A stretch of DNA of 64,000 nt from Ulva prolifera (lineage: Eukaryota; Chlorophyta; Ulvophyceae; Ulvales; Ulvaceae). Both the position numbers and the translations under genes were made by a program. This document shows positions 39,946-62,528 of this stretch, piece after piece (within the stretch, counting starts at the first letter, position 1; every line of letters starts with the position of its first letter). The DNA lies in NCBI GenBank assembly GCA_023078555.1, contig CM041197.1, forward strand, positions 6,221,810-6,285,809. The letters are read 5' to 3'. The notes beneath the pieces were generated by a model, which searched no databases, was not told the DNA's origin, and saw only the letters and a program-made list of their open reading frames with translations.

Positions 39946-39948
39946 CAT
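39946..39948. other. Target site duplication CAT, left
   Basis: The satellite reads ...GCTAGCAGGCAT and is cut by the transposon immediately after CAT. Intact monomers elsewhere read GCAGGCATGGGAGTACG, so CAT is original target sequence. The matching copy is at 54698-54700. A 3-bp duplication is what CACTA elements are known to make. Confidence 0.93.
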
Positions 39949-39973
39949 CACTACAAGAAACCTGACCGGCCCA
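39949..39973 (+). repeat. Left terminal inverted repeat of the CACTA element
   Basis: The first 18 bases, CACTACAAGAAACCTGAC, are the perfect reverse complement of the last 18 bases of the element. Position 19 differs (C here, T in the complement of the right end), and GGCCCA then matches again, giving a 25-bp repeat with one mismatch. CACTA at the tip is the signature of the superfamily. Confidence 0.96.
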
Positions 39974-40160
39974 AGGAAGGACAAGGTGCCCCTTATGACT
40001 TGGGGGCTCGTTGGCAGAGGGCTGTAGTGCCCCATGCTAGTTCAGGGGCGGTTTCAGGATTCGGCAGCTGGGGGGGGTTCCGGCTCCAGGGTCACTTTGA
40101 AAGTCAGGGGCACATATGGGCCCCACGATGAGGGGGTGTTTGCTTGGGCATTCACCAAGC
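39974..40160. promoter_or_regulatory. Left subterminal region with TGCCCC/GGGGCA motifs
   Basis: TGCCCC occurs at 39987-39992 and 40028-40033, GGGGC at 40045-40049 and GGGGCA at 40107-40112, with other G-runs between them. The same motif, in either orientation, recurs close to the right end (TGCCCC at 54600-54605 and 54655-54660; CAGCCCC near 54561 and 54578). CACTA elements typically carry short subterminal motifs bound by their accessory protein, and this cluster is the natural candidate. Binding itself is inference. Confidence 0.5.
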
Positions 40161-41425
40161 TGCTCCATAAGGGGCCGTATTTGTGCCACCATGCCATGGC
40201 ACATTGGTGAAACGGTGCGATGCCCTGCTATGGACAATCGGGTCGCATTGAATATTACTATCTTGACAGATAAGGCACATAATCGATTGAATGTGCGAAC
40301 TGTGCACCGTGGGTGCTGATGACTGTTTCTGGCGGTTTGGTACATCGACGCACGGACATTGAGCAGGTGTCCCGTGGGTGGTGTGATGGGTCGGCTGTAC
40401 AGATTCATGAGTGCGTAAATCCTGGTCATGCTTTGCTTGATGTCGGCTTTCGTGGCGATCCTTGCGGCCGCCCGGAGGGAGCCAGCAGCTTTGTAGCCGA
40501 TGCATGCAGCTAACGCGGATGCGGCTTTGGGCTCGACATGATTATCGACTCGCGCAGGCCTGCACTGTGATCACGTTCCCACCGGTGCGTGTGCTCAGTC
40601 AGGTGATCCAACGGATGGCTTATGTGCCCCTAGTCTTCTTCATGCGCGGAGAACGGACTTGATTAGTCGGCGTGGATTTCGCGATGCTGCGAGTGAATCA
40701 ATTAGTGACCAGCGTGCTTCCCCAGTGGCTGCCAGACGCCAATATCCGAAGCAATGTAGTACGTTCCGGTAGGCTACATGCTCATGCTTCATCTGCCTTG
40801 GCTTGTGTGTTGCGCCACAGTTGCTCGTGACTGGTGTTCCATGATGGCGCCTGTAGCAAAACGCCATTTGAGGTGTAAACAATGAAAACGATTCTTACAC
40901 TGACATGCAGGTGATGATGCTCCACTGACGTATTCCTTCGGTGTATCGTGATCAGTGTTGCAGCGGCAGTTTGCTGCTACACTCCACCTAGCCCAAGACA
41001 TCATGATTATGGCAGCAGTAGAAGCTACTTGATCACAAGCTACTGAAGGTGTAGTTTACGGTGCAGTGGATAGCCCATTAACGATGAGGTAGGCTGCTGG
41101 CAAGTATTATCTGTGAGTATCCACGCTGAATTCTTGATGTGTGGAGATGCTATGTCTAGCTAGGGCATGGAACTCGTGTCGTGTCCAAGTGATACAGCAA
41201 AATGCTTTGAACACCATGTGCTGGCTGCTCATGTAGGTGCTGCATTCCTGTTGGTTGTAGGTGATCTGTGCGATAGGCATGGACCTCTATAGAAATCACG
41301 TGTTGCTGTCTCGACTCATAAACTTCGTCCAGCTCGGGTAAGCCGCATTATCAGCACAAGTACCTATGGTGTTACATGGTCGTAACTTTTCAACCGAAGG
41401 TTGACAGCTTCAAAGTGGGAATGAA
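40161..41425. other. CACTA left arm, no convincing gene
   Basis: This is non-repetitive sequence between the subterminal motifs and the internal array. Open frames of 66-130 codons exist on both strands (for example 40037-40429 and 40152-40505, both minus), but they overlap one another, lack a recognisable motif and show no clear codon bias. Untranslated, intronic or promoter sequence of an element gene is possible. Short exons cannot be excluded. Confidence 0.5.
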
Positions 41426-44400
41426 AAACTGCACAGTTCACTGCACATGTGAGTTGCCGAATGGATTTGCAGCTCAGGTGTGCCAGTGGCTGCCTCAGCT
41501 CCTTCACAAAAAATTCAGCATGCTCACAGAAGCGGGAAACCAGCATGCACGTGCGACGTATGCAGCCAGCACCCAACCCAGCCTTGGGCTGCTGGAGCTC
41601 AAACTGCACAGTTCACTGCACATGTGAGTTGATGAATGAATATGCAGCTCAGGCGCGCCAGTGGCAGCCTCAGCTCCTTCACAAAAAAGTCAGCATGCTC
41701 ACAGAAGCGGGAAACCAGCATGCACGTGCGACGTATGCAGCCAGCACCCAACCCAGCCTTGGGCTGCTGGAGCTCAAACTGCACAGTTCACTGCACATGT
41801 GAGTTGCCGAATGGATTTGCAGCTCAGGTGTGCCAGTGGCAGCCTCAGCTCCTTCACAAAAAATTCAGCATGCTCACAGAGCGGGAAACCAGCATGCACG
41901 TGCGACGTATGCAGCCAGCACCCAACCCAGCCTTGGGCTGCTGGAGCTCAAACTGCACAGTTCACTGCACATGTGAGTTGCCGAATGGATTTGCAGCTCA
42001 GGTGTGCCAGTGGCTGCCTCAGCTCCTTCACAAAAAATTCAGCATGCTCACAGAAGCGGGAAACCAGCATGCACGTGCGACGTATGCAGCCAGCACCCAA
42101 CCCAGCCTTGGGCTGCTGGAGCTCAAACTGCACAGTTCACTGCACATGTGAGTTGATGAATGAATATGCAGCTCAGGCGCGCCAGTGGCAGCCTCAGCTC
42201 CTTCACAAAAAAGTCAGCATGCTCACAGAAGCGGGAAACCAGCATGCACGTGCGACGTATGCAGCCAGCACCAAACCCAGCCTTGGGCTGCTGGAGCTCA
42301 AACTGCACAGTTCACTGCACATGTGAGTTGCCGAATGGATTTGCAGCTCAGGTGTGCCAGTGGCAGCCTCAGCTCCTTCACAAAAAATTCAGCATGCTCA
42401 CAGAGCGGGAAACCAGCATGCACGTGCGACGTATGCAGCCAGCACCCAACCCAGCCTTGGGCTGCTGGAGCTCAAACTGCACAGTTCACTGCACATGTGA
42501 GTTGCCGAATGGATTTGCAGCTCAGGTGTGCCAGTGGCAGCCTCAGCTCCTTCACAAAAAATTCAGCATGCTCACAGAGCGGGAAACCAGCATGCACGTG
42601 CGACGTATGCAGCCAGCACCCAACCCAGCCTTGGGCTGCTGGAGCTCAAACTGCACAGTTCACTGCACATGTGAGTTGCCGAATGGATTTGCAGCTCAGG
42701 TGTGCCAGTGGCTGCCTCAGCTCCTTCACAAAAAATTCAGCATGCTCACAGAAGCGGGAAACCAGCATGCACGTGCGACGTAAGCAGCCAGCACCCAACC
42801 CAGCCTTGGGCTGCTGGAGCTCAAACTGCACAGTTCACTGCACATGTGAGTTGATGAATGAATATGCAGCTCAGGCGCGCCAGTGGCAGCCTCAGCTCCT
42901 TCACAAAAAAGTCAGCATGCTCACAGAAGTGGGAAACCAGCATGCACGTGCGACGTATGCAGCCAGCACCCAACCCAGCCTTGGGCTGCTGGAGCTCAAA
43001 CTGCACAGTTCACTGCACATGTGAGTTGCCGAATGGATTTGCAGCTCAGGTGTGCCAGTGGCAGCCTCAGCTCCTTCACAAAAAATTCAGCATGCTCACA
43101 GAAGCGGGAAACCAGCATGCACGTGCGACGTATGCAGCCAGCACCAAACCCAACCTTGAGCTGCTGGAGTTCAAACTGCACAGTTCACTGCACATGTGAG
43201 TTGCCGAATGGATTTGCAGCTCAGGTGTGTCAGTGGCTGCCTCAGCTCCTTCACAAAAAAATCAGCATGTTCACAGAAGCGGGAAACCAGCATGCACGTG
43301 CGACGTATGCAGCCAGCACCAAACCCAGCCTTGGGCTGCTGGAGCTCAAACTGCACAGTTCACTGCACATGTGAGTTGCCGAATGGATTTGCAGCTCAGG
43401 TGTGCCAGTGGCTGCCTCAGCTCCTTCACAAAAAATTCAGCATGCTCACAGAGCGGGAAACCAGCATGCACGTGCGACGTATGCAGCCAGCACCCAACCC
43501 AGCCTTGGGCTGCTGGAGCTCAAACTGCACAGTTCACTGCACATGTGAGTTGCCGAATGGATTTGCAGCTCAGGTGTGCCAGTGGCTGCCTCAGCTCCTT
43601 CACAAAAAATTCAGCATGCTCACAGAGCGGGAAACCAGCATGCACGTGCGACGTATGCAGCCAGCACCCAACCCAGCCTTGGGCTGCTGGAGCTCAAACT
43701 GCACAGTTCACTGCACATGTGAGTTGCCGAATGGATTTGCAGCTCAGGTGTGCCAGTGGCTGCCTCAGCTCCTTCACAAAAAATTCAGCATGCTCACAGA
43801 AGCGGGAAACCAGCATGCACGTGCGACGTATGCAGCCAGCACCCAACCCAGCCTTGGGCTGCTGGAGCTCAAACTGCACAGTTCACTGCACATGTGAGTT
43901 GATGAATGAATATGCAGCTCAGGCGCGCCAGTGGCAGCCTCAGCTCCTTCACAAAAAAGTCAGCATGCTCACAGAAGCGGGAAACCAGCATGCACGTGCG
44001 ACGTATGCAGCCAGCACCAAACCCAGCCTTGGGCTGCTGGAGCTCAAACTGCACAGTTCACTGCACATGTGAGTTGCCGAATGGATTTGCAGCTCAGGTG
44101 TGCCAGTGGCAGCCTCAGCTCCTTCACAAAAAATTCAGCATGCTCACAGAGCGGGAAACCAGCATGCACGTGCGACGTATGCAGCCAGCACCCAACCCAG
44201 CCTTGGGCTGCTGGAGCTCAAACTGCACAGTTCACTGCACATGTGAGTTGCCGAATGGATTTGCAGCTCAGGTGTGCCAGTGGCAGCCTCAGCTCCTTCA
44301 CAAAAAATTCAGCATGCTCACAGAGCGGGAAACCAGCATGCACGTGCGACGTATGCAGCCAGCACCCAACCCAGCCTTGGGCTGCTGGAGCTCAAACTGC

Positions 44401-47400
44401 ACAGTTCACTGCACATGTGAGTTGCCGAATGGATTTGCAGCTCAGGTGTGCCAGTGGCTGCCTCAGCTCCTTCACAAAAAATTCAGCATGCTCACAGAAG
44501 CGGGAAACCAGCATGCACGTGCGACGTATGCAGCCAGCACCCAACCCAGCCTTGGGCTGCTGGAGCTCAAACTGCACAGTTCACTGCACATGTGAGTTGA
44601 TGAATGAATATGCAGCTCAGGCGCGCCAGTGGCAGCCTCAGCTCCTTCACAAAAAAGTCAGCATGCTCACAGAAGCGGGAAACCAGCATGCACGTGCGAC
44701 GTATGCAGCCAGCACCCAACCCAGCCTTGGGCTGCTGGAGCTCAAACTGCACAGTTCACTGCACATGTGAGTTGCCGAATGGATTTGCAGCTCAGGTGTG
44801 CCAGTGGCAGCCTCAGCTCCTTCACAAAAAATTCAGCATGCTCACAGAAGCGGGAAACCAGCATGCACGTGCGACGTATGCAGCCAGCACCAAACCCAAC
44901 CTTGAGCTGCTGGAGTTCAAACTGCACAGTTCACTGCACATGTGAGTTGCCGAATGGATTTGCAGCTCAGGTGTGTCAGTGGCTGCCTCAGCTCCTTCAC
45001 AAAAAAATCAGCATGTTCACAGAAGCGGGAAACCAGCATGCACGTGCGACGTATGCAGCCAGCACCAAACCCAGCCTTGGGCTGCTGGAGCTCAAACTGC
45101 ACAGTTCACTGCACATGTGAGTTACCGAATGGATTTGCAGCTCAGGTGTGCCAGTGGCTGCCTCAGCTCCTTCACAAAAAATTCAGCATGCTCACAGAGC
45201 GGGAAACCAGCATGCACGTGCGACGTATGCAGCCAGCACCCAACCCAGCCTTGGGCTGCTGGAGCTCAAACTGCACAGTTCACTGCACATGTGAGTTGCC
45301 GAATGGATTTGCAGCTCAGGTGTGCCAGTGGCTGCCTCAGCTCCTTCACAAAAAATTCAGCATGCTCACAGAAGCGGGAAACCAGCATGCACGTGCGACG
45401 TATGCAGCCAGCACCCAACCCAGCCTTGGGCTGCTGGAGCTCAAACTGCACAGTTCACTGCACATGTGAGTTGATGAATGAATATGCAGCTCAGGCGCGC
45501 CAGTGGCAGCCTCAGCTCCTTCACAAAAAAGTCAGCATGCTCACAGAAGCGGGAAACCAGCATGCACGTGCGACGTATGCAGCCAGCACCAAACCCAGCC
45601 TTGGGCTGCTGGAGCTCAAACTGCACAGTTCACTGCACATGTGAGTTGCCGAATGGATTTGCAGCTCAGGTGTGCCAGTGGCAGCCTCAGCTCCTTCACA
45701 AAAAATTCAGCATGCTCACAGAGCGGGAAACCAGCATGCACGTGCGACGTATGCAGCCAGCACCCAACCCAGCCTTGGGCTGCTGGAGCTCAAACTGCAC
45801 AGTTCACTGCACATGTGAGTTGCCGAATGGATTTGCAGCTCAGGTGTGCCAGTGGCTGCCTCAGCTCCTTCACAAAAAATTCAGCATGCTCACAGAAGCG
45901 GGAAACCAGCATGCACGTGCGACGTATGCAGCCAGCACCCAACCCAGCCTTGGGCTGCTGGAGCTCAAACTGCACAGTTCACTGCACATGTGAGTTGATG
46001 AATGAATATGCAGCTCAGGCGCGCCAGTGGCAGCCTCAGCTCCTTCACAAAAAAGTCAGCATGCTCACAGAAGCGGGAAACCAGCATGCACGTGCGACGT
46101 ATGCAGCCAGCACCAAACCCAGCCTTGGGCTGCTGGAGCTCAAACTGCACAGTTCACTGCACATGTGAGTTGCCGAATGGATTTGCAGCTCAGGTGTGCC
46201 AGTGGCAGCCTCAGCTCCTTCACAAAAAATTCAGCATGCTCACAGAGCGGGAAACCAGCATGCACGTGCGACGTATGCAGCCAGCACCCAACCCAGCCTT
46301 GGGCTGCTGGAGCTCAAACTGCACAGTTCACTGCACATGTGAGTTGCCGAATGGATTTGCAGCTCAGGTGTGCCAGTGGCAGCCTCAGCTCCTTCACAAA
46401 AAATTCAGCATGCTCACAGAAGCGGGAAACCAGCATGCACGTGCGACGTATGCAGCCAGCACCCAACCCAGCCTTGGGCTGCTGGAGCTCAAACTGCACA
46501 GTTCACTGCACATGTGAGTTGATGAATGAATATGCAGCTCAGGCGCGCCAGTGGCAGCCTCAGCTCCTTCACAAAAAAGTCAGCATGCTCACAGAAGCGG
46601 GAAACCAGCATGCACGTGCGACGTATGCAGCCAGCACCAAACCCAGCCTTGGGCTGCTGGAGCTCAAACTGCACAGTTCACTGCACATGTGAGTTGCCGA
46701 ATGGATTTGCAGCTCAGGTGTGCCAGTGGCAGCCTCAGCTCCTTCACAAAAAATTCAGCATGCTCACAGAGCGGGAAACCAGCATGCACGTGCGACGTAT
46801 GCAGCCAGCACCCAACCCAGCCTTGGGCTGCTGGAGCTCAAACTGCACAGTTCACTGCACATGTGAGTTGCCGAATGGATTTGCAGCTCAGGTGTGCCAG
46901 TGGCAGCCTCAGCTCCTTCACAAAAAATTCAGCATGCTCACAGAGCGGGAAACCAGCATGCACGTGCGACGTATGCAGCCAGCACCCAACCCAGCCTTGG
47001 GCTGCTGGAGCTCAAACTGCACAGTTCACTGCACATGTGAGTTGCCGAATGGATTTGCAGCTCAGGTGTGCCAGTGGCAGCCTCAGCTCCTTCACAAAAA
47101 ATTCAGCATGCTCACAGAAGCGGGAAACCAGCATGCACGTGCGACGTATGCAGCCAGCACCAAACCCAACCTTGAGCTGCTGGAGTTCAAACTGCACAGT
47201 TCACTGCACATGTGAGTTGCCGAATGGATTTGCAGCTCAGGTGTGTCAGTGGCTGCCTCAGCTCCTTCACAAAAAAATCAGCATGTTCACAGAAGCGGGA
47301 AACCAGCATGCACGTGCGACGTATGCAGCCAGCACCAAACCCAGCCTTGGGCTGCTGGAGCTCAAACTGCACAGTTCACTGCACATGTGAGTTGCCGAAT

Positions 47401-50400
47401 GGATTTGCAGCTCAGGTGTGCCAGTGGCTGCCACAGCTCCTTCACAAAAAATTCAGCATGCTCACAGAGCGGGAAACCAGCATGCACGTGCGACGTATGC
47501 AGCCAGCACCCAACCCAGCCTTGGGCTGCTGGAGCTCAAACTGCACAGTTCACTGCACATGTGAGTTGCCGAATGGATTTGCAGCTCAGGTGTGCCAGTG
47601 GCTGCCACAGCTCCTTCACAAAAAATTCAGCATGCTCACAGAAGCGGGAAACCAGCATGCACGTGCGACGTATGCAGCCAGCACCAAACCCAGCCTTGGG
47701 CTGCTGGAGCTCAAACTGCACAGTTCACTGCACATGTGAGTTGCCGAATGGATTTGCAGCTCAGGTGTGCCAGTGGCAGCCTCAGCTCCTTCACAAAAAA
47801 TTCAGCATGCTCACAGAGCGGGAAACCAGCATGCACGTGCGACGTATGCAGCCAGCACCCAACCCAGCCTTGGGCTGCTGGAGCTCAAACTGCACAGTTC
47901 ACTGCACATGTGAGTTGCCGAATGGATTTGCAGCTCAGGTGTGCCAGTGGCAGCCTTAGCTCCTTCACAAAAAATTCAGCATGCTCACAGAAGCGGGAAA
48001 CCAGCATGCACGTGCGACGTATGCAGCCAGCACCCAACCCAGCCTTGGGCTGCTGGAGCTCAAACTGCACAGTTCACTGCACATGTGAGTTGATGAATGA
48101 ATATGCAGCTCAGGCGCGCCAGTGGCAGCCTCAGCTCCTTCACAAAAAAGTCAGCATGCTCACAGAAGCGGGAAACCAGCATGCACGTGCGACGTATGCA
48201 GCCAGCACCAAACCCAGCCTTGGGCTGCTGGAGCTCAAACTGCACAGTTCACTGCACATGTGAGTTGCCGAATGGATTTGCAGCTCAGGTGTGCCAGTGG
48301 CAGCCTCAGCTCCTTCACAAAAAATTCAGCATGCTCACAGAGCGGGAAACCAGCATGCACGTGCGACGTATGCAGCCAGCACCCAACCCAGCCTTGGGCT
48401 GCTGGAGCTCAAACTGCACAGTTCACTGCACATGTGAGTTGCCGAATGGATTTGCAGCTAAGGTGTGCCAGTGGCTGCCTCAGCTCCTTCACAAAAAATT
48501 CAGCATGCTCACAGAAGCGGGAAACCAGCATGCACGTGCGACGTATGCAGCCAGCACCCAACCCAGCCTTGGGCTGCTGGAGCTCAAACTGCACAGTTCA
48601 CTGCACATGTGAGTTGATGAATGAATATGCAGCTCAGGCGCGCCAGTGGCAGCCTCAGCTCCTTCACAAAAAAGTCAGCATGCTCACAGAAGCGGGAAAC
48701 CAGCATGCACGTGCGACGTATGCAGCCAGCACCAAACCCAGCCTTGGGCTGCTGGAGCTCAAACTGCACAGTTCACTGCACATGTGAGTTGCCGAATGGA
48801 TTTGCAGCTCAGGTGTGCCAGTGGCAGCCTCAGCTCCTTCACAAAAAATTCAGCATGCTCACAGAGCGGGAAACCAGCATGCACGTGCGACGTATGCAGC
48901 CAGCACCCAACCCAGCCTTGGGCTGCTGGAGCTCAAACTGCACAGTTCACTGCACATGTGAGTTGCCGAATGGATTTGCAGCTCAGGTGTGCCAGTGGCA
49001 GCCTCAGCTCCTTCACAAAAAATTCAGCATGCTCACAGAAGCGGGAAACCAGCATGCACGTGCGACGTATGCAGCCAGCACCCAACCCAGCCTTGGGCTG
49101 CTGGAGCTCAAACTGCACAGTTCACTGCACATGTGAGTTGATGAATGAATATGCAGCTCAGGCGCGCCAGTGGCAGCCTCAGCTCCTTCACAAAAAAGTC
49201 AGCATGCTCACAGAAGCGGGAAACCAGCATGCACGTGCGACGTATGCAGCCAGCACCAAACCCAGCCTTGGGCTGCTGGAGCTCAAACTGCACAGTTCAC
49301 TGCACATGTGAGTTGCCGAATGGATTTGCAGCTCAGGTGTGCCAGTGGCAGCCTCAGCTCCTTCACAAAAAATTCAGCATGCTCACAGAGCGGGAAACCA
49401 GCATGCACGTGCGACGTATGCAGCCAGCACCCAACCCAGCCTTGGGCTGCTGGAGCTCAAACTGCACAGTTCACTGCACATGTGAGTTGCCGAATGGATT
49501 TGCAGCTAAGGTGTGCCAGTGGCTGCCTCAGCTCCTTCACAAAAAATTCAGCATGCTCACAGAAGCGGGAAACCAGCATGCACGTGCGACGTATGCAGCC
49601 AGCACCCAACCCAGCCTTGGGCTGCTGGAGCTCAAACTGCACAGTTCACTGCACATGTGAGTTGATGAATGAATATGCAGCTCAGGCGCGCCAGTGGCAG
49701 CCTCAGCTCCTTCACAAAAAAGTCAGCATGCTCACAGAAGCGGGAAACCAGCATGCACGTGCGACGTATGCAGCCAGCACCAAACCCAGCCTTGGGCTGC
49801 TGGAGCTCAAACTGCACAGTTCACTGCACATGTGAGTTGCCGAATGGATTTGCAGCTCAGGTGTGCCAGTGGCAGCCTCAGCTCCTTCACAAAAAATTCA
49901 GCATGCTCACAGAGCGGGAAACCAGCATGCACGTGCGACGTATGCAGCCAGCACCCAACCCAGCCTTGGGCTGCTGGAGCTCAAACTGCACAGTTCACTG
50001 CACATGTGAGTTGCCGAATGGATTTGCAGCTCAGGTGTGCCAGTGGCAGCCTCAGCTCCTTCACAAAAAATTCAGCATGCTCACAGAGCGGGAAACCAGC
50101 ATGCACGTGCGACGTATGCAGCCAGCACCCAACCCAGCCTTGGGCTGCTGGAGCTCAAACTGCACAGTTCACTGCACATGTGAGTTGCCGAATGGATTTG
50201 CAGCTCAGGTGTGCCAGTGGCTGCCTCAGCTCCTTCACAAAAAATTCAGCATGCTCACAGAAGCGGGAAACCAGCATGCACGTGCGACGTATGCAGCCAG
50301 CACCCAACCCAGCCTTGGGCTGCTGGAGCTCAAACTGCACAGTTCACTGCACATGTGAGTTGATGAATGAATATGCAGCTCAGGCGCGCCAGTGGCAGCC

Positions 50401-50780
50401 TCAGCTCCTTCACAAAAAAATCAGCATGTTCACAGAAGCGGGAAACCAGCATGCACGTGCGACGTATGCAGCCAGCACCCAACCCAGCCTTGGGCTGCTG
50501 GAGCTCAAACTGCACAGTTCACTGCACATGTGAGTTGCCGAATGGATTTGCAGCTCAGGTGTGCCAGTGGCAGCCTCAGCTTCTTCAAAAAAAATCCAGC
50601 ATGTACACAGAAGCGGGAAATCAGCATGCACGTGCGCCGCAAGCAGCCAGCACCAAACCCAACCTTGAGCTGCTGGAGTTCAAACTGCACAGTTCACTGC
50701 ACATGTGAGTTGATGAATGAATATGCAGCTCAGGTTTGCCAGTGGCTGCCTCAGCTCCTTCTCAAAAAATCCAGCATGCT
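41426..50780. repeat. 174/175-bp tandem array inside the CACTA element
   Basis: About 53 head-to-tail units of 174 or 175 bp. The two lengths differ by one A (CACAGAGCGGG versus CACAGAAGCGGG). Each unit contains CACATGTG, GCAGCTCAGG, CAGCTCCTTCACAAAAAA, CAGCATGCACGTGCGACG and CTTGGGCTGCTGGAGCTC. Main subtypes differ by TTGCCGAATGGATTTGC versus TTGATGAATGAATATGC, CAGTGGCTGCC versus CAGTGGCAGCC, and AGCACCCAAC versus AGCACCAAAC. The last units (50580-50780) are more diverged than the core, as usual at array edges. It has no similarity that I can see to the 167-bp satellite outside. It lies entirely within the transposon and so would move with it. Confidence 0.96.
45471..50359. repeat. Trimeric higher-order repeat (~524 bp) of the 175-bp unit
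   Basis: The TTGATGAATGAATATGC subtype works as a register mark. Its ATGAATATG occurs at 41636, 42160, 42858, 43906, 44604, 45478, 46002, 46526, 48097, 48621, 49145, 49669 and 50367. Most spacings are 524 bp (three units: 175+175+174), with others of about 698, 874, 1048 and 1571 bp (4, 5, 6 and 9 units). The array therefore expanded largely by amplification of a trimer, with occasional added single units. Confidence 0.85.
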
Positions 50781-51015
50781 TGTAACAGCTGCCATGCGTA
50801 ACATGTACATTTGCACCCAGGGAATGGTGGGACGTGTGGTTTGTGGACATGAAAGTGAACTCTGCGTATGGCAGGTGGACAGTGGAGAGGAGTCCATGCC
50901 GGTAGAAAAGGCAAATCTGTACAGATCAGTGTCACGAGTCGCGACACGTTTGGATTTGATGCAGTTTACATCCACGACTCTTTATTCTGAGCTAGAAAAC
51001 TTTATCGAAGTATGA
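50392..51015 (+). CDS. Open frame running from the last 175-bp units into unique DNA (uncertain)
   Basis: The reading frame covers about two final repeat units and then stays open for about 80 codons beyond the array, ending at a TGA at 51013. The unique part includes the residues VVCGHESELCVWQVDSGEES and ends STTLYSELENFIEV. The sequence ATCGAA followed by GTATGA at the end could be a splice donor (GAA|GTATGA), making the non-repeat part a possible exon. No domain is recognised and the start codon lies inside repeat sequence, so the ORF as a whole may be fortuitous. If it is transcribed, the repeat-derived part would give a Cys-rich peptide. It lies 700 bp upstream of, and on the same strand as, the candidate gene at 51720. 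Confidence 0.25.
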   Translation: MAASAPSQKNQHVHRSGKPACTCDVCSQHPTQPWAAGAQTAQFTAHVSCRMDLQLRCASGSLSFFKKNPACTQKREISMHVRRKQPAPNPTLSCWSSNCTVHCTCELMNEYAAQVCQWLPQLLLKKSSMLVTAAMRNMYICTQGMVGRVVCGHESELCVWQVDSGEESMPVEKANLYRSVSRVATRLDLMQFTSTTLYSELENFIEV

Positions 51016-51719
51016 TTTGGTGTGAAACACCGCGTCAAGCTGATTTAATTCCCACATACATTTCTGACTTGCTAGCTTTCGAGGTAAGCATCAGCAAGGC
51101 TGATGTCCCCAATGCTTGAAAAACTAATATTCGTGGAGGCAACCTTACTCCCCGCTTCCCTCTTAATTTGAGACCTGACGAATGGGAAATGGCATCGATT
51201 TTGCCCCTCGGCGAATGGACAGAGAGTTGGGTTTTCACCATTTCAGATTTATATCATGCTCGGATGCACCTGGCGCCTGCAAACACAGCCACAATACATT
51301 ATAATTACAGCCTCTTGACTTTTTCAGGTTAGCTGTGGCGAGACACAGGTCGTGTCATTGTCGAGTGCTAAAGGGCAGCAATCACAGACACATAAAAGGA
51401 GCAGCCACCATACCGCTCGTGCCATCTTTATGATGGCGTCGACGTTGACCTTTGACTTCAGCACGATGATGTGACGGCAGACATGGACCGTCGCGACTGG
51501 ATGGCGGAGCTGGGGTCTGGTGCTGCCTACGCCATCGCTGTGGGGTATCCTCCCCCTACGCCACACGCACGCGGTGGCAACGCGCCTGGAGAACTTTGTC
51601 ACGCCCAGCGAACGTCACTGAATCTGGCGACGGAATCCGGTCACAAGCGAGCGCATCTCCGCAGCATTGTGGTTTGACCGTCTACTCGTCGAGTGTGAGT
51701 TACTCCCAGATTTGCCACC
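51016..51719. promoter_or_regulatory. Region upstream of the candidate element gene, TATA-like box
   Basis: CATAAAAGGA at 51391-51400 resembles a TATA box and lies about 330 bp upstream of the ATG at 51720. An open frame with ATG at 51483 (starting MDRRDWMAEL, to 51677) lies between them and could be an upstream exon or leader ORF. I see no repeats here. The promoter assignment is inference from position only. Confidence 0.3.
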
Positions 51720-52148
51720 ATGCAAGCCGGCCAAGACGCTCCCGGGCTCCGGCCGTATACACTGTCTATTAAGGTGATTGACATTTACTCAGATGGCAAA
51801 CTCCTCGTGACAGCCGATACGTATACGAGCAAGCCACTAGGGGTGCCAGCAGATTGCCGCAGCCACGCTGAGGAAGTAATCTTGACTATATTGAGCGATG
51901 TCGGCAGGGCAGGGTCGAAGGAGTTCAGCGTGGAAGGCAGCTTGGAGAAGAAACAATTTAGTCTTCGGAAGATCATGGAACGAATCTACGCCATGAGACT
52001 CGAGGCAGCCGAGCCGGTGCACGAGGCGCTCACGCGACTGCAGAACACTACCCAGATTTAGGGCCACTACGAATTACGTCTGACGACGAAGAAGAAAGGT
52101 CGCGGCAAAAGCAGACCAAAGGTCGATGCGCAGCAGGCCAAGTACGAG
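51720..52148 (+). CDS. Candidate exon 1 of an unrecognised gene in the CACTA right arm
   Basis: The ATG at 51720 sits in GCCACCATGC, an excellent eukaryotic initiation context, which is why I chose it. The frame gives 113 residues starting MQAGQDAPGLRPYTLSIKV, meets TAG at 52059, and then stays open through a very basic stretch (TTKKKGRGKSRPK) to KYE at 52148, where GAG|GTACGC makes a good splice donor. The conserved-looking frame on both sides of the TAG suggests one ancestral exon. The TAG may be an inactivating change, be read through, or be removed with a 45-nt GT-AG segment (52017-52061) that also keeps the frame. The composition (charged, few low-complexity runs) looks like a real protein. 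I recognise no family. It could be a diverged element protein or a captured host gene fragment. Confidence 0.45.
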
Positions 52149-52304
52149 GTACGCAGCCACTTTAAAGCTGGCATTTGCACCAAGCGCGTTTCACGTTCAA
52201 TATTGGGCGCGCACTCGCGAGTGGTCGACAGTCGCATTCCGCGCCGTCTAACCGTTGGGTCTCTCGTAATGAATGGTTAACAGTGCCCCATATTCAACGT
52301 GCAG
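52149..52304 (+). other. Candidate intron 1 (GTACGC...GTGCAG)
   Basis: A 156-nt segment with GT-AG ends joins two open frames in phase 0 (codon GAG before, AAT after). The exon 1 frame remains open into the segment until TAA at 52278, but the sense then passes to another frame at the GTGCAG acceptor. This is inferred from splice signals and frame continuity only. Confidence 0.4.
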
Positions 52305-52535
52305 AATCCAGCAAGGAGGGAAGCTGGGCTGGCAACTATAGCGTACATGCCATCAAGCCTGTCCAAGGTAGCTCTCAATGCAGCATTGAAGGCCGATCCC
52401 GAATATCGCGTCAAGGTCAAGTTTCTGCCAAAGGCAGTAACATTCTGGGGACCAGAAGACCGATGGTGGCTACCGGGAATGCCTGTTGCCAGGCTTGGGC
52501 TGCGGGCCAAGCTGAGCTCTGAACTGTTTATCGAG
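52305..52535 (+). CDS. Candidate exon 2 of the same unrecognised gene
   Basis: Following the GTGCAG acceptor, 77 codons are open in phase 0, starting NPARREAGLATIAYMPSS, with an aromatic-rich centre (VTFWGPEDRWWLPGMPVARL) and ending SELFIE before GAG|GTCCTC. The open frame extends further to TGA at 52602 if this donor is not used. It is predicted soluble, with no membrane segment or zinc-binding pattern. No family is recognised. Phase-0 boundaries on both sides match those of its neighbours, which supports the gene model more than any single splice site does. Confidence 0.42.
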
Positions 52536-52658
52536 GTCCTCACCCTAGTCTGCCTTCGCTGTATTCCACAGAATTTACATGAGCAGTACTCAGGTGATCT
52601 CTGAACAATCAACTTTAGGATGCAATGGATTGCAAATGTCAGGTGCCACTCCTTGCAG
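52536..52658 (+). other. Candidate intron 2 (GTCCTC...TTGCAG)
   Basis: A 123-nt segment with a weak GT donor and a good CCTTGCAG acceptor joins exon 2 to the next open frame in phase 0. Alternative acceptors (CTTTAG at 52618, GTCAG near 52640) are less compatible with the frame. Assignment is tentative. Confidence 0.35.
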
Positions 52659-53051
52659 AACATTGAAGAAGACGCCATCGTTGGCTTCCAGAAGTTGCTG
52701 GCGCTCGCCTCATATGGCGAGGCAATGCGGCGCGATTTGGCCACAAAGCATCTTGATTATCAGACGAAAAAGCTGCATTTGAAAGTGCTGTCCAAGTATG
52801 ACATCTTTGCCCTTTCCATGTCGGTATCCTTCGCCAATGTCACGATTCTGTCCTCTGATTACGAATATGCCTATGTAGGGCCACAGATCTCTAGAGAACA
52901 TGCGCTCGAGATCCAGAGCAGCTTGTCTGATGGACTTTTTACTGTCTATTGGAGAGAAAGAAGCACTCGGTACACACCCAAGTGCATCCAAGTTGACAGG
53001 AGGGGGCCCCCTCCCGGGCACCTTCGGAGTGCAGTTCAAGGCTTTATTTGA
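52659..53051 (+). CDS. Candidate exon 3 of the same unrecognised gene
   Basis: After TTGCAG the frame reads NIEEDAIVGFQKLLALASYG, continues with helical, charged sequence (KHLDYQTKKLHLKVLSKYD), and is open to TGA at 53049-53051. A possible phase-0 donor TCG|GTATCC at 52824 would end the exon after about 55 codons; without it the frame runs for 130 codons. The segment looks protein-like and is not shadowed by a better frame on the other strand. I cannot assign it to the transposase or to any named family. It follows exons 1 and 2 on the same strand in the right arm of the transposon. Confidence 0.42.
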   Translation, partial: NIEEDAIVGFQKLLALASYGEAMRRDLATKHLDYQTKKLHLKVLSKYDIFALSMSVSFANVTILSSDYEYAYVGPQISREHALEIQSSLSDGLFTVYWRERSTRYTPKCIQVDRRGPPPGHLRSAVQGFI

Positions 53052-53559
53052 CAGCAGCTGTATCAACAGCATACAGTCTAGCTGCCATGGGTACGGCCAC
53101 TGCGGCGTGTGTGCTGTTCTTGCCCTAGCAGCAGCCTAGTGCACGTGGCGCCATGTTTGTACCCAAGATGACATGCTTCGATGTGCAGGTGCTGACATAG
53201 AATCCAACACAGAACAGTGCAACGCAGACCCACAGCTAAGCTTGCCATGTGCCAAGGTGTGTCACCAAACGTTGCATGTCCCCACTCCCTGCCTTGCAGC
53301 ATAAGGCAGTCGGGGAGCGCAATGAGCATGCTTGCTCGCATTGAATTCGCAGTTTTAACCATATCCAGGTTTGCTCACTGTCAATAGATGCTGTACGTAG
53401 TCGTGAGGCACTCTCTATGTCGCATTTCTGGTTTCCATTGCAATTATGGCATTTGTTGGTGTATCCTTCCCTGGCCACATCTTTCTGCTACGGCGGTCCA
53501 GCTCTGTTGCACACAACTATATGCCAGCAGCAATGAGTTCTGATTTGGCATTTCATGCA
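53052..53559. other. CACTA right arm, no gene seen
   Basis: This unique sequence has short overlapping frames on both strands and no recognised motif. It probably includes intron or untranslated sequence if the flanking candidate exons belong to one gene. Confidence 0.4.
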
Positions 53560-53793
53560 GAGGAAGAGGACGTCAGGGCGGCAGAGGTCGAAGAAGTATT
53601 GAGGCTAGATGCAGAGGTGCAGAACAAGACCACAGCTCCAGAGAGAGGCTGCAGCACATTTGAAGATTTTGTTTTGGACCGTTTTGTGTTGCTTGCTGAT
53701 TCATGTGTTGTTGTGATAGTGCAGCCCCCTCTCACCCTGCAGTGGCTTGTGCAATGGCGACCAGGTGTCATAGGAATGAGGGACGGGTATTAG
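53531..53793 (+). CDS. Possible acidic exon in the CACTA right arm
   Basis: From the ATG at 53533 the frame reads MSSDLAFHAEEEDVRAAEVE and then a charged helical stretch (EEVLRLDAEVQNKT) and FEDFVLDRFVLLADS, with a stop at 53793. The acidic, heptad-like part suggests a short coiled coil or helix. Candidate acceptors (CCAGCAG just before, or TGCAG near 53570) exist. The 3' part after about 53705 looks less protein-like and may be intron. No family is recognised. Confidence 0.3.
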
Positions 53794-54198
53794 CTGCCTC
53801 CAGCCTACAGATTGTAACCTTCACAAGCCATATGAGAACAGTAGGTCGCTTATCAGTACTGTACGGCTGCATGCTACATGTTTTCGAGCTCTGGAAGCAC
53901 CACCATGATCTCCTCCTAGCAATGCAGAGGAATGTGACCCTAATTGCATCAGTGGCAGATTCTGCCACCAGCTTATAATAATTGGCCCTGATACCCGAGA
54001 AACTGCCATTGGGCCAAGGGCACTTCCAGCCCCTTGGTGGTAAGGGTCACTTCTGTGCTCACATAGGAGCAGAATCATGGTGATGTGCCACAGCCTCCTT
54101 CTGCCTACTTCTATGCCCTGAAGCACCATCTTATAGTCACAAGGAACTCAAATTACACCAATGTTTGGTTGACACGTTTGCCACGATTTACTGCATAG
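53794..54198. other. CACTA right arm, non-coding or intronic
   Basis: I see no convincing frame. GGGCC and GCCCC motifs (around 53984-54033) resemble those of the subterminal regions. The stretch ends at GCATAG, a possible splice acceptor for the next candidate exon. Confidence 0.35.
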
Positions 54199-54417
54199 GT
54201 GGAAGACTTCCAGCTCGATCCCGCCACGACAAACACCACCCACTTCGGCGACTTCCAAGCATGCATCCAGCCGTCCAGTGCCGAAATCCCGTACACCACA
54301 CAACGCTGCATATACTTACGCAACTACCTACATCGCCCACTGCTTTCGCATCATTTATGCGTTATAAGCATTGCGCGTAGACCGGCTAACCATATAGTTA
54401 CTGCCCCACGGAGCTAG
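54199..54417 (+). CDS. Possible exon with C-rich third codon positions
   Basis: Directly after CTGCATAG the frame reads VEDFQLDPATTNTTHFGDFQ, then ACIQPSSAEIPYTTQRC, and is open to TAG at 54415. In the first 40 codons most third positions are C or G (GAC TTC, GAT CCC GCC ACG, CAC TTC GGC GAC TTC). This is a coding-type bias not seen in neighbouring frames. A possible phase-0 donor is TGC|GTTATA at 54361, which would make the exon 54 codons. The product is unknown. It is followed by another phase-0 candidate exon at 54531. Confidence 0.38.
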   Translation: MEDFQLDPATTNTTHFGDFQACIQPSSAEIPYTTQRCIYLRNYLHRPLLSHHLCVISIARRPANHIVTAPRS

Positions 54418-54530
54418 GCTCTGTATGATCCGAAGCGATCGCTGCACGCCAGAGTCGCCGCTTGCCACCACTAACGGACCTGTTACGTTTCATGTACTTG
54501 ATGTATTGAATGGATCTTGTTTCTGTACAG

Positions 54531-54665
54531 AATAACGCCACTCACGACCGCAGCCGGCTTCAGCCCCTTGCCAATGTCAGCCCCAGAGTTCAGGCAAATG
54601 TGCCCCCAGAGCTACACTCGGACTCATCCAACTGCACCAAGTGCGCCTCACAATGTGCCCCTTCT
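54531..54665 (+). CDS. Phase-0 exon ending beside the right terminal repeat
   Basis: A pyrimidine-rich acceptor TTGTTTCTGTACAG precedes exactly 45 open codons (NNATHDRSRLQPLANVSPRV ... NCTKCASQCAPS), and the exon closes with CCTTCT|GTAAGT, a perfect donor, at 54666-54671, one base before the inverted repeat begins. Third positions are C-rich and the peptide carries a CTKC...C cysteine group. If the donor is not used, the frame reads into the repeat and stops at its TAG (54693-54695). CACTA elements are known to supply splice sites near their ends. Here the transcript would leave the element and splice into flanking satellite, or the exon is the remnant of a captured gene. No family is recognised. 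Confidence 0.42.
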
Positions 54666-54672
54666 GTAAGTC
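54540..54672. promoter_or_regulatory. Right subterminal motifs (GCCCC/TGCCCC)
   Basis: CAGCCCC near 54561 and 54578, TGCCCC at 54600-54605 and TGCCCC at 54655-54660 mirror the motif cluster of the left end. The region overlaps the candidate last exon, so part of the GCCCC content could be codon usage instead of protein-binding sites. Confidence 0.4.
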
Positions 54673-54697
54673 TGGGCCAGTCAGGTTTCTTGTAGTG
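54673..54697 (-). repeat. Right terminal inverted repeat of the CACTA element
   Basis: The final 18 bases GTCAGGTTTCTTGTAGTG are the exact reverse complement of the first 18 of the element. The six bases TGGGCC(A) further in extend the match to 25 bp with one mismatch. Confidence 0.96.
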
Positions 54698-54700
54698 CAT
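54698..54700. other. Target site duplication CAT, right
   Basis: CAT follows the element directly and is continued by GGGAGTACGTTTACATTGG, the sequence that follows GCAGGCAT in intact monomers. It pairs with 39946-39948. Confidence 0.93.
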
Positions 54701-57700
54701 GGGAGTACGTTTACATTGGCGTGCTCATTTCTTCATGTTGTATACATAAATATCCTGTTAATGTGTGTCCGATATACTGATTAACATTGAGCCTATGCCC
54801 GCGTGCATAATAAATGGTGTGTAGACCACAATCTTCAAAAACTGTGTACTTTCGGAGAAGACATGCATGGGAGGGCCTTTACACACCGCACTCATTTCTT
54901 CATGTTGTATACATACATATCATGCCAATGTGTGTCAGATGGATAATTTTCATTGACCTCGTGCCCGCGTGCATTCCTACTAGTGTGTAGACCACGATCT
55001 TCAAAAACTGTGTACTTTCGAAGCTGGCAGGCATGGGAGTACGTTTACATTGGCGCACTCATTTCTTCATGTTGTATACATAAATATCCTGTTAATGTGT
55101 GTCAGATATACTGATTTACATTGAGCCCATGCCTGCTTGCATTCTAGCTGTTGTGTAGTCCACGTTCTTCAAAAACTGTGTACTTTCGGACAAGACATGC
55201 ATGGGAGGGCCTTTACACACCGCGCTCATTTCTTCATGTTGTATACATACATATCATGCCAATGTGTGTCAGATGGATAATTTTCATTGACCTCGTGCCC
55301 GCGTGCATTCCTGCTAGTGTGTAGACCACGATCTTCAAAAAATGTGTACTTTCGAAGCTAGCAGGCATGGGAGTACGTTTACATTGGCGCGCTCATTTCT
55401 TCATGTTGTATACATAAATATCCTGTTAATGTGTGTCCGATCTACTGATTAACATTGAGCCCATGCCCGCGTGCATAATAAATGGTGTGTAGACCACAAT
55501 CTTAAAAAACTGTGTACTTTCGAAGCTGGCAGGCATGGGAGCACGTTTACACTGGCGCGCTCATTTCTTCATGTTGTATACATAAATATCCTGTTATTGT
55601 TTGTCAGATATACTGATTTACATTGAGCCCATGCATGCTTGCATTCTAGCTGTTGTGTAGTCCACGTTCTTCAAAAACTGTGTACTTTCGGAGAAGACAT
55701 GCATGGGAGGGCCTTTACACACCGCGCTCATTTCTTCATGTTGTATACATACATATCATGCCAATGTGTGTCAGATGGATAATTTTCATTGACCTCGTGC
55801 CCGCGTGCATTCCTACTAGTGTGTAGACCACGATCTTCAAAAACTGTGTACTTTCGAAGCTGGCAGGCATGGGAGTACGTTTACATTGGCGCACTCATTT
55901 CTTCATGTTGTATACATAAATATCCTGTTAATGTGTGTCAGATATACTGATTTACATTGAGCCCATGCCTGCTTGCATTCTAGCTGTTGTGTAGTCCACG
56001 TTCTTGAAAAACTGTGTACTTTCGGAGAAGACATGCATGGGAGGGCCTTTACACACCGCGCTCATTTCTTCATGTTGTATACATACATATCATGCCAATG
56101 TGTGTCAGATGGATAATTTTCATTGACCTCGTGCCCGCGTGCATTCCTACTAGTGTGTAGACCACGATCTTCAAAAACTGTGTACTTTCGAAGCTGGCAG
56201 GCATGGGAGTACGTTTACATTGGCGCACTCATTTCTTCATGTTGTATACATAAATATCCTGTTAATGTGTGTCAGATATACTGATTTACATTGAGCCCAT
56301 GCCTGCTTGCATTCTAGCTGTTGTGTAGTCCACGTTCTTGAAAAACTGTGTACTTTCGGAGAAGACATGCATGGGAGGGCCTTTACACACCGCGCTCATT
56401 TCTTCATGTTGTATACATACATATCATGCCAATGTGTGTCAGATGGATAATTTTCATTGACCTCGCGCCCGCGTGCATTCCTGCTAGTGTGTAGACCACG
56501 ATCTTCAAAAAATGTGTACTTTCGAAGCTAGCAGGCATGGGAGTACGTTTACATTGGCGCGCTCATTTCTTCATGTTGTATACATAAAAATCCTGTTAAT
56601 GTGTGTCCGATATACTGATTAACATTGAGCCCATGCCCGCGTGCATAATAAATGGTGTGTAGACCACAATCTTCAAAAACTGTGTACTTTCGAAGCTGGC
56701 AGGCATGGGAGTACGTTTACACTGGCGCGCTCATTTCTTCATGTTGTATACATAAATATTCTGTTATTGTGTGTCAGATATAATGATTTACATTGAGCCC
56801 ATGCCTGCTTGCATTCTAGCTGTTGTGTAGTCCACGTTCTTCAAAAACTGTGTACTTTCGGAGAAGACATGCATGGGAGGGCCTTTACACACCGCACTCA
56901 TTTCTACATGTTGTATACATACATATACTGTTAATGTGTGTCAGATATACTGATTTACATTGAGCCCATGCCTGCTTGCATTCTAGCTGTTGTGTAGTCC
57001 ACGTTCTTCAAAAACTGTGTACTTTCGGACAAGACATGCATGGGAGGGCCTTTACACACCGCGCTCATTTCTTCATGTTGTATACATACATATCATGCCA
57101 ATGTGTGTCAGATGGATAATTTTCATTGACCTCGTGCCCGCGTGCATTCCTGCTAGTGTGTAGACCACGATCTTCAAAAAATGTGTACTTTCGAAGCTAG
57201 CAGGCATGGGAGTACGTTTACATTGGCGCGCTCATTTCTTCATGTTGTATACATAAATATCCTGTTAATGTGTGTCCGATCTACTGATTAACATTGAGCC
57301 CATGCCCGCGTGCATAATAAATGGTGTGTAGACCACAATCTTAAAAAACTGTGTACTTTCGAAGCTGGCAGGCATGGGAGCACGTTTACACTGGCGCGCT
57401 CATTTCTTCATGTTGTATACATAAATATCCTGTTATTGTTTGTCAGATATACTGATTTACATTGAGCCCATGCATGCTTGCATTCTAGCTGTTGTGTAGT
57501 CCACGTTCTTCAAAAACTGTGTACTTTCGGAGAAGACATGCATGGGAGGGCCTTTACACACCGCGCTCATTTCTTCATGTTGTATACATACATATCATGC
57601 CAATGTGTGTCAGATGGATAATTTTCATTGACCTCGTGCCCGCGTGCATTCCTACTAGTGTGTAGACCACGATCTTCAAAAACTGTGTACTTTCGAAGCT

Positions 57701-60700
57701 GGCAGGCATGGGAGTACGTTTACATTGGCGCACTCATTTCTTCATGTTGTATACATAAATATCCTGTTAATGTGTGTCAGATATACTGATTTACATTGAG
57801 CCCATGCCTGCTTGCATTCTAGCTGTTGTGTAGTCCACGTTCTTGAAAAACTGTGTACTTTCGGAGAAGACATGCATGGGAGGGCCTTTACACACCGCGC
57901 TCATTTCTTCATGTTGTATACATACATATCATGCCAATGTGTGTCAGATGGATAATTTTCATTGACCTCGTGCCCGCGTGCATTCCTGCTAGTGTGTAGA
58001 CCACGATCTTCAAAAAATGTGTACTTTCGAAGCTAGCAGGCATGGGAGTACGTTTACATTGGCGCGCTCATTTCTTCATGTTGTATACATAAAAATCCTG
58101 TTAATGTGTGTCCGATATACTGATTAACATTGAGCCCATGCCCGCGTGCATAATAAATGGTGTGTAGACCACAATCTTCAAAAACTGTGTACTTTCGAAG
58201 CTGGCAGGCATGGGAGTACGTTTACACTGGCGCGCTCATTTCTTCATGTTGTATACATAAATATTCTGTTATTGTGTGTCAGATATAATGATTTACATTG
58301 AGCCCATGCCTGCTTGCATTCTAGCTGTTGTGTAGTCCACGTTCTTCAAAAACTGTGTACTTTCGGAGAAGACATGCATGGGAGGGCCTTTACACACCGC
58401 ACTCATTTCTACATGTTGTATACATACATATACTGTTAATGTGTGTCAGATATACTGATTTACATTGAGCCCATGCCTGCTTGCATTCTAGCTGTTGTGT
58501 AGTCCACGTTCTTGAAAAACTGTGTACTTTCGGAGAAGACATGCATGGGAGGGCCTTTACACACCGCGCTCATTTCTTCATGTTGTATACATACATATCA
58601 TGCCAATGTGTGTCAGATGGATAATTTTCATTGACCTCGTGCCCGCGTGCATTCCTGCTAGTGTGTAGACCACGATCTTCAAAAAATGTGTACTTTCGAA
58701 GCTAGCAGGCATGGGAGTACGTTTACATTGGCGCGCTCATTTCTTCATGTTGTATACATAAATATCCTGTTAATGTGTGTACGATCTACTGATTAACATT
58801 GAGCCCATGCCCGCGTGCATAATAAATGGTGTGTAGACCACAATCTTAAAAAACTGTGTACTTTCGAAGCTGGCAGGCATGGGAGCACGTTTACACTGGC
58901 GCGCTCATTTCTTCATGTTGTATACATAAATATCCTGTTATTGTTTGTCAGATATACTGATTTACATTGAGCCCATGCATGCTTGCATTCTAGCTGTTGT
59001 GTAGTCCACGTTCTTCAAAAACTGTGTACTTTCGGAGAAGACATGCATGGGAGGGCCTTTACACACCGCGCTCATTTCTTCATGTTGTATACATACATAT
59101 CATGCCAATGTGTGTCAGATGGATAATTTTCATTGACCTCGTGCCCGCGTGCATTCCTACTAGTGTGTAGACCACGATCTTCAAAAACTGTGTACTTTCG
59201 AAGCTGGCAGGCATGGGAGTACGTTTACATTGGCGCACTCATTTCTTCATGTTGTATACATAAATATCCTGTTAATGTGTGTCAGATATACTGATTTACA
59301 TTGAGCCCATGCCTGCTTGCATTCTAGCTGTTGTGTAGTCCACGTTCTTCAAAAACTGTGTACTTTCGGAGAAGACATGCATGGGAGGGCCTTTACACAC
59401 CGCGCTCATTTCTTCATGTTGTATACATACATATCATGCCAATGTGTGTCAGATGGATAATTTTCATTGACCTCGTGCCCGCGTGCATTCCTACTAGTGT
59501 GTAGACCACGATCTTCAAAAACTGTGTACTTTCGAAGCTGGCAGGCATGGGAGTACGTTTACATTGGCGCACTCATTTCTTCATGTTGTATACATAAATA
59601 TCCTGTTAATGTGTGTCAGATATACTGATTTACATTGAGCCCATGCCTGCTTGCATTCTAGCTGTTGTGTAGTCCACGTTCTTGAAAAACTGTGTACTTT
59701 CGGAGAAGACATGCATGGGAGGGCCTTTACACACCGCGCTCATTTCTTCATGTTGTATACATACATATCATGCCAATGTGTGTCAGATGGATAATTTTCA
59801 TTGACCTCGTGCCCGCGTGCATTCCTGCTAGTGTGTAGACCACGATCTTCAAAAAATGTGTACTTTCGAAGCTAGCAGGCATGGGAGTACGTTTACATTG
59901 GCGCGCTCATTTCTTCATGTTGTATACATAAAAATCCTGTTAATGTGTGTTTGATATACTGATTAACATTGAGCCCATGCCCGCGTGCATAATAAATGGT
60001 GTGTAGACCACAATCTTCAAAAACTGTGTACTTTCGAAGCTGGCAGGCATGGGAGTACGTTTACACTGGCGCGCTCATTTCTTCATGTTGTATACATAAA
60101 TATTCTGTTATTGTGTGTCAGATATAATGATTTACATTGAGCCCATGCCTGCTTGCATTCTAGCTGTTGTGTAGTCCACGTTCTTCAAAAACTGTGTACT
60201 TTCGGAGAAGACATGCATGGGAGGGCCTTTACACACCGCACTCATTTCTACATGTTGTATACATACATATACTGTTAATGTGTGTCAGATATACTGATTT
60301 ACATTGAGCCCATGCCTGCTTGCATTCTAGCTGTTGTGTAGTCCACGTTCTTGAAAAACTGTGTACTTTCGGAGAAGACATGCATGGGAGGGCCTTTACA
60401 CACCGCGCTCATTTCTTCATGTTGTATACATACATATCATGCCAATGTGTGTCAGATGGATAATTTTCATTGACCTCGTGCCCGCGTGCATTCCTGCTAG
60501 TGTGTAGACCACGATCTTCAAAAAATGTGTACTTTCGAAGCTAGCAGGCATGGGAGTACGTTTACATTGGCGCGCTCATTTCTTCATGTTGTATACATAA
60601 AAATCCTGTTAATGTGTGTCCGATATACTGATTAACATTGAGCCCATGCCCGCGTGCATAATAAATGGTGTGTAGACCACAATCTTCAAAAACTGTGTAC

Positions 60701-61368
60701 TTTCGAAGCTGGCAGGCATGGGAGTACGTTTACACTGGCGCGCTCATTTCTTCATGTTGTATACATAAATATCCTGTTATTGTGTGTCAGATATACTGAT
60801 TTACATTGAGCCCATGCCTGCTTGCATTCTAGCTGTCGTGTAGTCCACGTTCTTCAAAAACTGTGTACTTTCGGAGAAGACATGCATGGGAGGGCCTTTA
60901 CACACCGCGATCATTTCTTCATGTTGTATACAACCATATCATGCCAATGTGTGTCAGATGGATAATGTTCATTGACCTCGTGCCCGCGTGCAATTCTGCT
61001 AGTGTGTAGACCACGATCTTCAAAAAATGTGTACTTTCGAAGCTAGCAGGCATGGGAGTACGTTTACATTGGCGCGCTCATTTCTTCATGTTGTATACAT
61101 AAATATCCTGTTAATGTGTGTCCGATATACTGATTAACATTGAGCCTATGCCCGCGTGCATAATAAATGGTGTGTAGACCACAATCTTCAAAAACTGTGT
61201 ACTTTCGGAGAAGACATGCATGGGAGGGCCTTTACACACCGCACTCATTTCATCATGTTGTATACATACATATCATGCCAATGTGTGTCAGATGGATAAT
61301 TTTCATTGACCTCGTGCCCGCGTGCATTCCTACTAGTGTGTAGACCACGATCTTCAAAAACTGTGTAC
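54698..61368. repeat. ~167-bp satellite array, right block
   Basis: This is the same satellite as 1-39948, resuming at the monomer position where the transposon cut it; about 40 monomers by length. The monomer order across the junction (the CAACCATATC/GCAATTCTGC type, then the AAATATCC/GAGCCTATGCCC type) is the order found in uninterrupted copies, for example 28780-29030. A local higher-order repeat is marked by GGGAGCACG with GCAC at 55541, 57380 and 58885 (offsets 1839 and 1505 bp, or 11 and 9 monomers). The array stops inside a monomer after CTGTGTAC at 61368. Confidence 0.96.
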
Positions 61369-61383
61369 ACATAGGCTATGCGT

Positions 61384-61410
61384 GGCACGCGCACCCTGGG
61401 TGCGCGTGCC
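61384..61410. repeat. Perfect 27-bp palindrome (13-bp arms, 1-nt centre)
   Basis: GGCACGCGCACCC is followed by T and then by its exact reverse complement GGGTGCGCGTGCC. The structure lies 16 bp from the end of the satellite array. Confidence 0.9.
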
Positions 61411-62528
61411 GGGTGCGCGGCGAAAGGTGAAATCTCAAGATCACCACAAACTCCTCTAAATCACCTCAACTTAACTGCTGAAGATAGCCTGTGGTCTTGG
61501 TATCTCAGTGAACTTGTTCCCAACACGATCGGTGAGGTACTCGCATTCCCACAGGTGTTTCCGCGAAGCAGGTCACTGGGGTCGTCGAGCCCCTACAGGT
61601 GATACCGCATGCCTACAAGCCAATACCACGACATGGTATCGCTGATATGATATTAAATTGAAGTTTGGGCTTCCGTCACAACCTGCCCGGGTTGTTCTCG
61701 GAGCGGAAGTGCGTTGTATAGGTTGCTCGCCCTGTCGCGCATCGTTGGCGTAAGTCCTTCAGAGTAACTTGAATTTGCGCGCCGGCGCTCGTGTAAGCTA
61801 AAAATATGTTTTTCTGAGGTTCCTGTTTGCCGTTTGCGCTGCGGTGCGCCGAGTTGGGTGGCACAGCTATGAAGTCGGTGAGCTGCCCCGGGGGTCACTG
61901 ACCGAAATTGAGGTGCTTCGGTGCTTTAAAAGGAATGTCACCGTTCCATAGCATTTTAATAAGCCAATGTGAAATACTTACGTGCGACTTGCGATGTTGG
62001 CGTGCGTGCTCGCACACTTATTCGAGTTGTGTGTGCACCAGAGGCTTACGCCGAGCCCAGTGCCCTGCACTCGTCCGGGTACGGTGTGACGCGGAACCGA
62101 AGTATCGATATAATTGACAGTTTCTTGGCATTACGATGCGTTTTGCGCGTCGCTATCTTTCGTAATCGCGTACATACAGTGTTCAGTAGCAGGCGAGGCT
62201 CTTGGACTTCCTCATCAGTCTAGGCGTCAGCATTAAAGGTTCCGGGTCGGCCAACCAGTCCATATAACGTCTTAGACTCTGTTATTGCAGATCCTTTAAT
62301 GTCGGTGGGAGTTGGGCTGTGATCGTATCTCCTGAGCTGTTGTTTCAACGTATCCGGCTTGCTCCATGCCACGCCAGGGCTCCGCCGCTTTGGCCCTTCC
62401 CGGGGATTAAACTATATATGTTCAGAGAGTATATACGCCTCTCCGCGAGCCTCGCGGCGATCCTGCGCTCTTCAAGGGTTCCGTTGCGCACCTGGTGGCG
62501 CGCACTTTCTAGCTTGCGCCGCCTCACT

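Follow-up and report, generated by a model that had tools for sequence, protein, structure and literature searches.

A CACTA-type transposable element of 14,749 bp occupies positions 39949-54697 of a 64,000-nt stretch of the Ulva prolifera genome (GenBank assembly GCA_023078555.1, contig CM041197.1, positions 6,221,810 to 6,285,809 of the forward strand; hereafter the window). The element interrupts a satellite array and carries a second tandem array in its own core. Very probably it belongs to the CACTA (En/Spm) superfamily as a non-autonomous member with satellite cargo, which was moved in trans. The reading is carried by matching ends, a 3-bp target duplication, copies of the empty site within the host array, and a core that represents an independent and highly homogenised tandem array.

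The boundaries of the element can be given to the base. It begins with the tip CACTA at 39949 and ends with TAGTG at 54697, and its 25-bp terminal inverted repeats (39949-39973 on the plus strand and 54673-54697 on the minus strand) are identical at 24 of 25 positions, the single mismatch being position 19. Directly outside the two tips, the trinucleotide CAT is found at 39946-39948 and at 54698-54700 (plus strand) as a 3-bp target site duplication. Inverted repeats with CACTA tips and a target site duplication of this length are features of the CACTA superfamily, and both are present here. In the whole window, CACTA and TAGTG form 107 pairs spaced 0.5-30 kb apart. Of these, the pair of the element reached 24/25 with equal 3-bp flanks, the runner-up 13/25 with unlike flanks. 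An initial annotation of this locus, made from the sequence alone, had described exact boundaries, a 25-bp inverted repeat with one mismatch and CACTA/TAGTG tips, and a CAT duplicated on both sides; these details were all borne out, and the interval given there, 39946-54700, takes in both CAT copies.

Besides the 3-bp target duplication, subterminal repeats near both ends are described for CACTA elements (PMC8978399, from the part of the text available). A candidate motif of this kind, AGGGGCACAT, is located on the minus strand 35 bp from either end, with one mismatch on the left (39984-39993) and as an exact copy on the right (54653-54662). Further copies lie at 40106 and 40622 in the left arm and, with one mismatch, at 54598 in the right arm. 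With up to one mismatch allowed, the two 700-nt ends contain 5 copies, compared with a mean of 0.13 and a maximum of 3 in 300 shuffles, and none was found in the internal array, the outer satellite or the right flank. These copies, few and picked after looking, would fit the subterminal repeats of CACTA elements.

The array that received the element is built of 167-bp monomers and 334-bp dimers (Tandem Repeats Finder periods 168/334). Its left part covers positions 1-39948 and continues beyond the left edge of the window, and its right part extends from 54698 to 61368. For reconstruction of the empty site, the flanks were joined in a script and one CAT was removed. The monomer across the joined site measures 167 bp, and all 278 intervals between the 279 anchors of the joined array fall between 166 and 168 bp, in agreement with the claim of the initial annotation that the satellite monomer is restored across the gap. 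That annotation had also proposed a search for empty sites, and such sites exist inside the window's own array. The joined site with 668 bp on either side gave end-to-end matches elsewhere in the same array in 99 of 286 BLAST pieces, and the best copy (15711-17046, plus strand) is 99.70% identical over 1,336 bp, with 4 mismatches and no gap. When 334 bp on either side of the join were used, 47 of 153 full-span matches were gapless with one CAT removed. Neither control join gave a gapless match, be it the one that retained both CATs (0 of 153) or the one shortened by another three bases (0 of 248). Ends, target duplication and empty-site copies thus agree on a clean CACTA-type insertion into the satellite, as first annotated.

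The insertion site is an ordinary one for this array: the identity of the best copy at 40 random array positions ranged from 94.25% to 99.92% and was at least 99.70% at 18 of them. At the copy at 15711, the likeness follows one constant offset and reaches about 1.1 kb leftward and about 1.3 kb rightward from the junction, so the two flanks adjoined each other until the element inserted. The element is missing from the copies of the site, since neither of its arms occurs a second time in the window. The simplest order of events puts a duplication of the satellite first and the insertion second; the insertion would then be younger than this duplication, which has diverged there by about 0.3%. 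Of the description of the insertion as dateable, this relative order stands; an absolute date does not follow, because gene conversion in satellites could reset the divergence clock. Next to the junction, 25 bases past the right tip of the element, position 54722 carries a T where the best empty-site copy has a C, and the 25-mer ending just past this position is unique in the joined array; the T could be a CpG change after the insertion.

The second array extends over 9,355 bp (41426-50780, plus strand) and makes up 63.4% of the element. Tandem Repeats Finder reports 53.6 copies of a 175-bp unit with 96% matches. An anchor sequence occurs 54 times with up to 3 mismatches, and the 53 intervals measure either 174 bp (19) or 175 bp (34). 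Only 17 distinct sequences are present among the 53 full monomers, the commonest 15 times, and the pairwise identity has a mean of 96.9% and a minimum of 88%. Monomer types frequently return in threes, with other types in between, giving many of the monomers a trimeric higher-order pattern of about 524 bp. Self-match periods of 3,318 and 4,191 bp rank above that of 524 bp, which comes third, and therefore larger-scale duplication must have occurred as well. Long duplications within the array gave no rows with BLAST, and an exact-repeat scan detected exact repeats of up to 1,082 bp. In an array homogenised by unequal exchange, divergence is expected at its edge. The last monomer is indeed the most diverged (mean identity 0.914), whereas the first shows no such decay (0.978). 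The internal array shows no likeness above chance to the outer satellite (best match 11 bp), and a 524-bp piece of it gave no match to the rest of the window at E values up to 0.001. A tandem array between the two ends, as in CACTA elements with captured satellite DNA (satDNA), is therefore an observed property of this locus.

The two arms flanking the core, 1,477 bp on the left (39949-41425) and 3,917 bp on the right (50781-54697), are without a recognised protein domain. Six-frame scans of both arms and of the DNA to the right of the host array (61369-64000), with stops read as X, gave no Pfam family above cut-off and three weak rows below it. No CACTA transposase, a feature of autonomous members only, was thus recognised in the six frames of both arms. 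In addition, ten stop-to-stop open reading frames (ORFs) were chosen from 65 of at least 80 amino acids, nine of them lying in the element and the tenth in the right flank; with Pfam E values of up to 10 they gave only matches below the curated cut-offs. The longest ORF was compared with dinucleotide shuffles in the left arm (p = 0.06) and in the right arm (p = 0.365), where the gene-like ORFs are no longer than expected by chance. Since no Pfam transposase was found and the ORF lengths resemble those of shuffles, the element is called non-autonomous, some residual probability being left for a gene that escaped recognition; the missing domain excludes a recognisable autonomous member, but not a non-autonomous one. 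The designation as a complete transposon in the initial annotation accordingly holds for the ends only: no Pfam transposase was recognised in the arms, and the satellite array that makes up 63% of the element, its most telling feature, was not named there.

A diverged or decayed autonomous element, with a multi-exon gene in the right arm beyond the recognition of Pfam, appears unlikely. Three plus-strand ORFs of 120, 107 and 148 amino acids at 51699-53051 look like gene remnants, and they have splice-like boundaries, judged by eye only. A period-3 peak of this arm (200 shuffles, p = 0.015; one of three regions, uncorrected) points in the same direction. Apart from the length of its longest ORF, however, the sum of the six longest ORFs of the right arm is also compatible with shuffles (p = 0.085), an in-frame stop is present at 52059-52061, and a sequence search of the Protein Data Bank (PDB) gave 0 matches. 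Single-sequence structure models of two ORFs had a mean predicted local distance difference test (pLDDT) score of 32 and 40, which is very low confidence and, without an alignment, uninformative either way. That the right arm holds a gene, whether captured or for a transposase, is hence unproven. Most improbable of all is an assembly artefact, in which an unrelated repeat would have joined two satellite contigs. Satellites and tandem arrays frequently misassemble, but an accidental join would not yield a 3-bp duplication at matching inverted termini together with a satellite that is restored to its register and has gapless copies elsewhere. Even so, the assembly may misstate how many monomers the internal array contains.

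Within the reading as a non-autonomous, satellite-bearing element, the origin of the core is a question of its own. That the array arose within the element itself, out of a short stretch of its own sequence rather than from a captured genomic satellite, is conceivable but somewhat less likely than not. Local amplification would give such a small number of distinct monomers (17 of 53) and long exact repeats as observed, but a captured array that was homogenised recently would look the same. Furthermore, the arms hold no convincing source monomer, the matches listed being weak (18-35 bp with 69-89% identity, E values of 0.075 or worse).

As for the mechanism of a non-autonomous element moved in trans, an autonomous relative elsewhere in the genome would supply the transposase, which would bind the terminal and subterminal sequences. 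The element would have been excised from a donor site and pasted into a monomer of the 167-bp satellite, with duplication of CAT. Its 9.4-kb core may have started as a captured satellite or a short internal duplication, which would then have been expanded and homogenised by unequal exchange between the ends. In this way, the element would act as a vehicle by which one satellite is brought into another. Several points weigh against this interpretation. No autonomous partner is known, and the window contains no further copy of the element. The motif AGGGGCACAT was selected after inspection of the ends, for which the best k-mer of each shuffle is a fairer control: the observed count of 3 for a 10-mer was reached in 2 of 300 shuffles, that of 4 for a 9-mer in 0 of 300, and that of 4 for an 8-mer in 4 of 300. 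The negative Pfam result for a transposase covers the six frames of the arms, the internal array not having been scanned in full, and the period-3 peak of the right arm leaves room for some coding remnant.

Systems of a related kind have been reported in plants, here considered from partial texts of the respective publications. In Chenopodium quinoa, a 16,523-bp CACTA-like element on scaffold 3389 contains a 5,550-bp array with 32.5 copies of 171-bp monomers, and the authors propose that captured satellites are spread by CACTA elements (PMC8978399). The quinoa element resembles that of Ulva in its similar size, its assignment to CACTA and its tandem array of nucleosome-length monomers (PMC8978399). 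It differs in having a coding sequence with a transposase domain, where none is recognised in Ulva, and in the position and share of its array, which lies near the 3' end and takes up about 34% of the length, compared with 63% in Ulva (PMC8978399). The quinoa satellite is dispersed along the chromosomes according to fluorescence in situ hybridisation, and the available part of that report does not describe insertion into another satellite (PMC8978399). The CACTA-like element Jozin, likewise from Chenopodium, is linked to a satellite family, CficCl-61-40, as about 40 bp of its tnp2 transposase domain represent the start monomer of the satDNA (PMC7320549). The two cases have in common a CACTA element linked to a satellite family, but in Jozin a transposase fragment seeded the satellite (PMC7320549), whereas the arms of the Ulva element gave no transposase domain. 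For rice centromere 8, CACTA elements are listed among the DNA transposons (PMC4387472).

The CgHINE Helentrons belong to another DNA transposon superfamily, which is not known to have CACTA-tipped inverted repeats or 3-bp duplications. CgHINE elements of Crassostrea gigas are non-autonomous Helentrons with central satellite-like tandem repeats and are comparable to the Ulva element in being non-autonomous and in having such a central array (PMC9659126, a review, in its available part).

Satellite cargo of CACTA elements and CACTA elements at centromeres are both already known. The Ulva element differs in how much of it the array occupies, in having no transposase that can be recognised, and in the way one tandem array is nested exactly within another. 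Among the literature matches listed, no title or opening of an abstract describes a CACTA element with a satellite core inserted in another satellite, which is weak evidence of absence. The arrival of new satellites in centromere-like arrays is an open question, and the locus shows a transposon-borne array of nucleosome-length monomers within another array. Exact boundaries and copies of the empty site in the same array make the order of events legible. As the principle has been published for Chenopodium, the locus is of value not as a new kind of system but as a clean example with sharp boundaries, in which the array takes a larger share. A more far-reaching view, in which a non-autonomous CACTA family acts as a mobile seeder that delivers a nucleosome-length, higher-order satellite into centromere-like arrays, where it may expand and replace the resident satellite, is decidedly unlikely on present grounds; if true, it would constitute a direct, transposase-driven route of satellite turnover.

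The term "centromere-like" for the host array, as used in the initial annotation, is a guess. The outer monomer is of nucleosome length and shows higher-order periods. The canonical CENP-B box pattern has 0 matches in the whole window and a looser pattern has 1, and tandem telomere units of the four types tried are absent from the window. Searches for RNA genes gave 0 Rfam matches at the gathering threshold and 0 tRNAs with ARAGORN (bacterial code).

Pattern searches were also run on viral and prokaryote contigs, where a missing match carries little weight because these collections are not eukaryote genomes. Exact patterns from the internal array and from the outer satellite had 0 matches in both groups, and a protein query from the right arm found no locus in viral contigs. 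The terminal-repeat pattern had 1 match in viral contigs, which is taken as chance, the 151 surrounding bases showing no further likeness by eye.

At 61368, the outer satellite gives way abruptly to satellite-free DNA with a GC content of about 51% (61368-64000). The tetramers CATG and TGCA rank with the most over-represented ones in the left arm, the right arm and the DNA at 61369-64000, with ratios of 1.8 to 3.1 where listed. Finally, a stretch of 2,079 bp at 27548 in the outer satellite is repeated exactly at an offset of 5,183 bp, which points to a recent segmental duplication in the array or to a duplication in the assembly.

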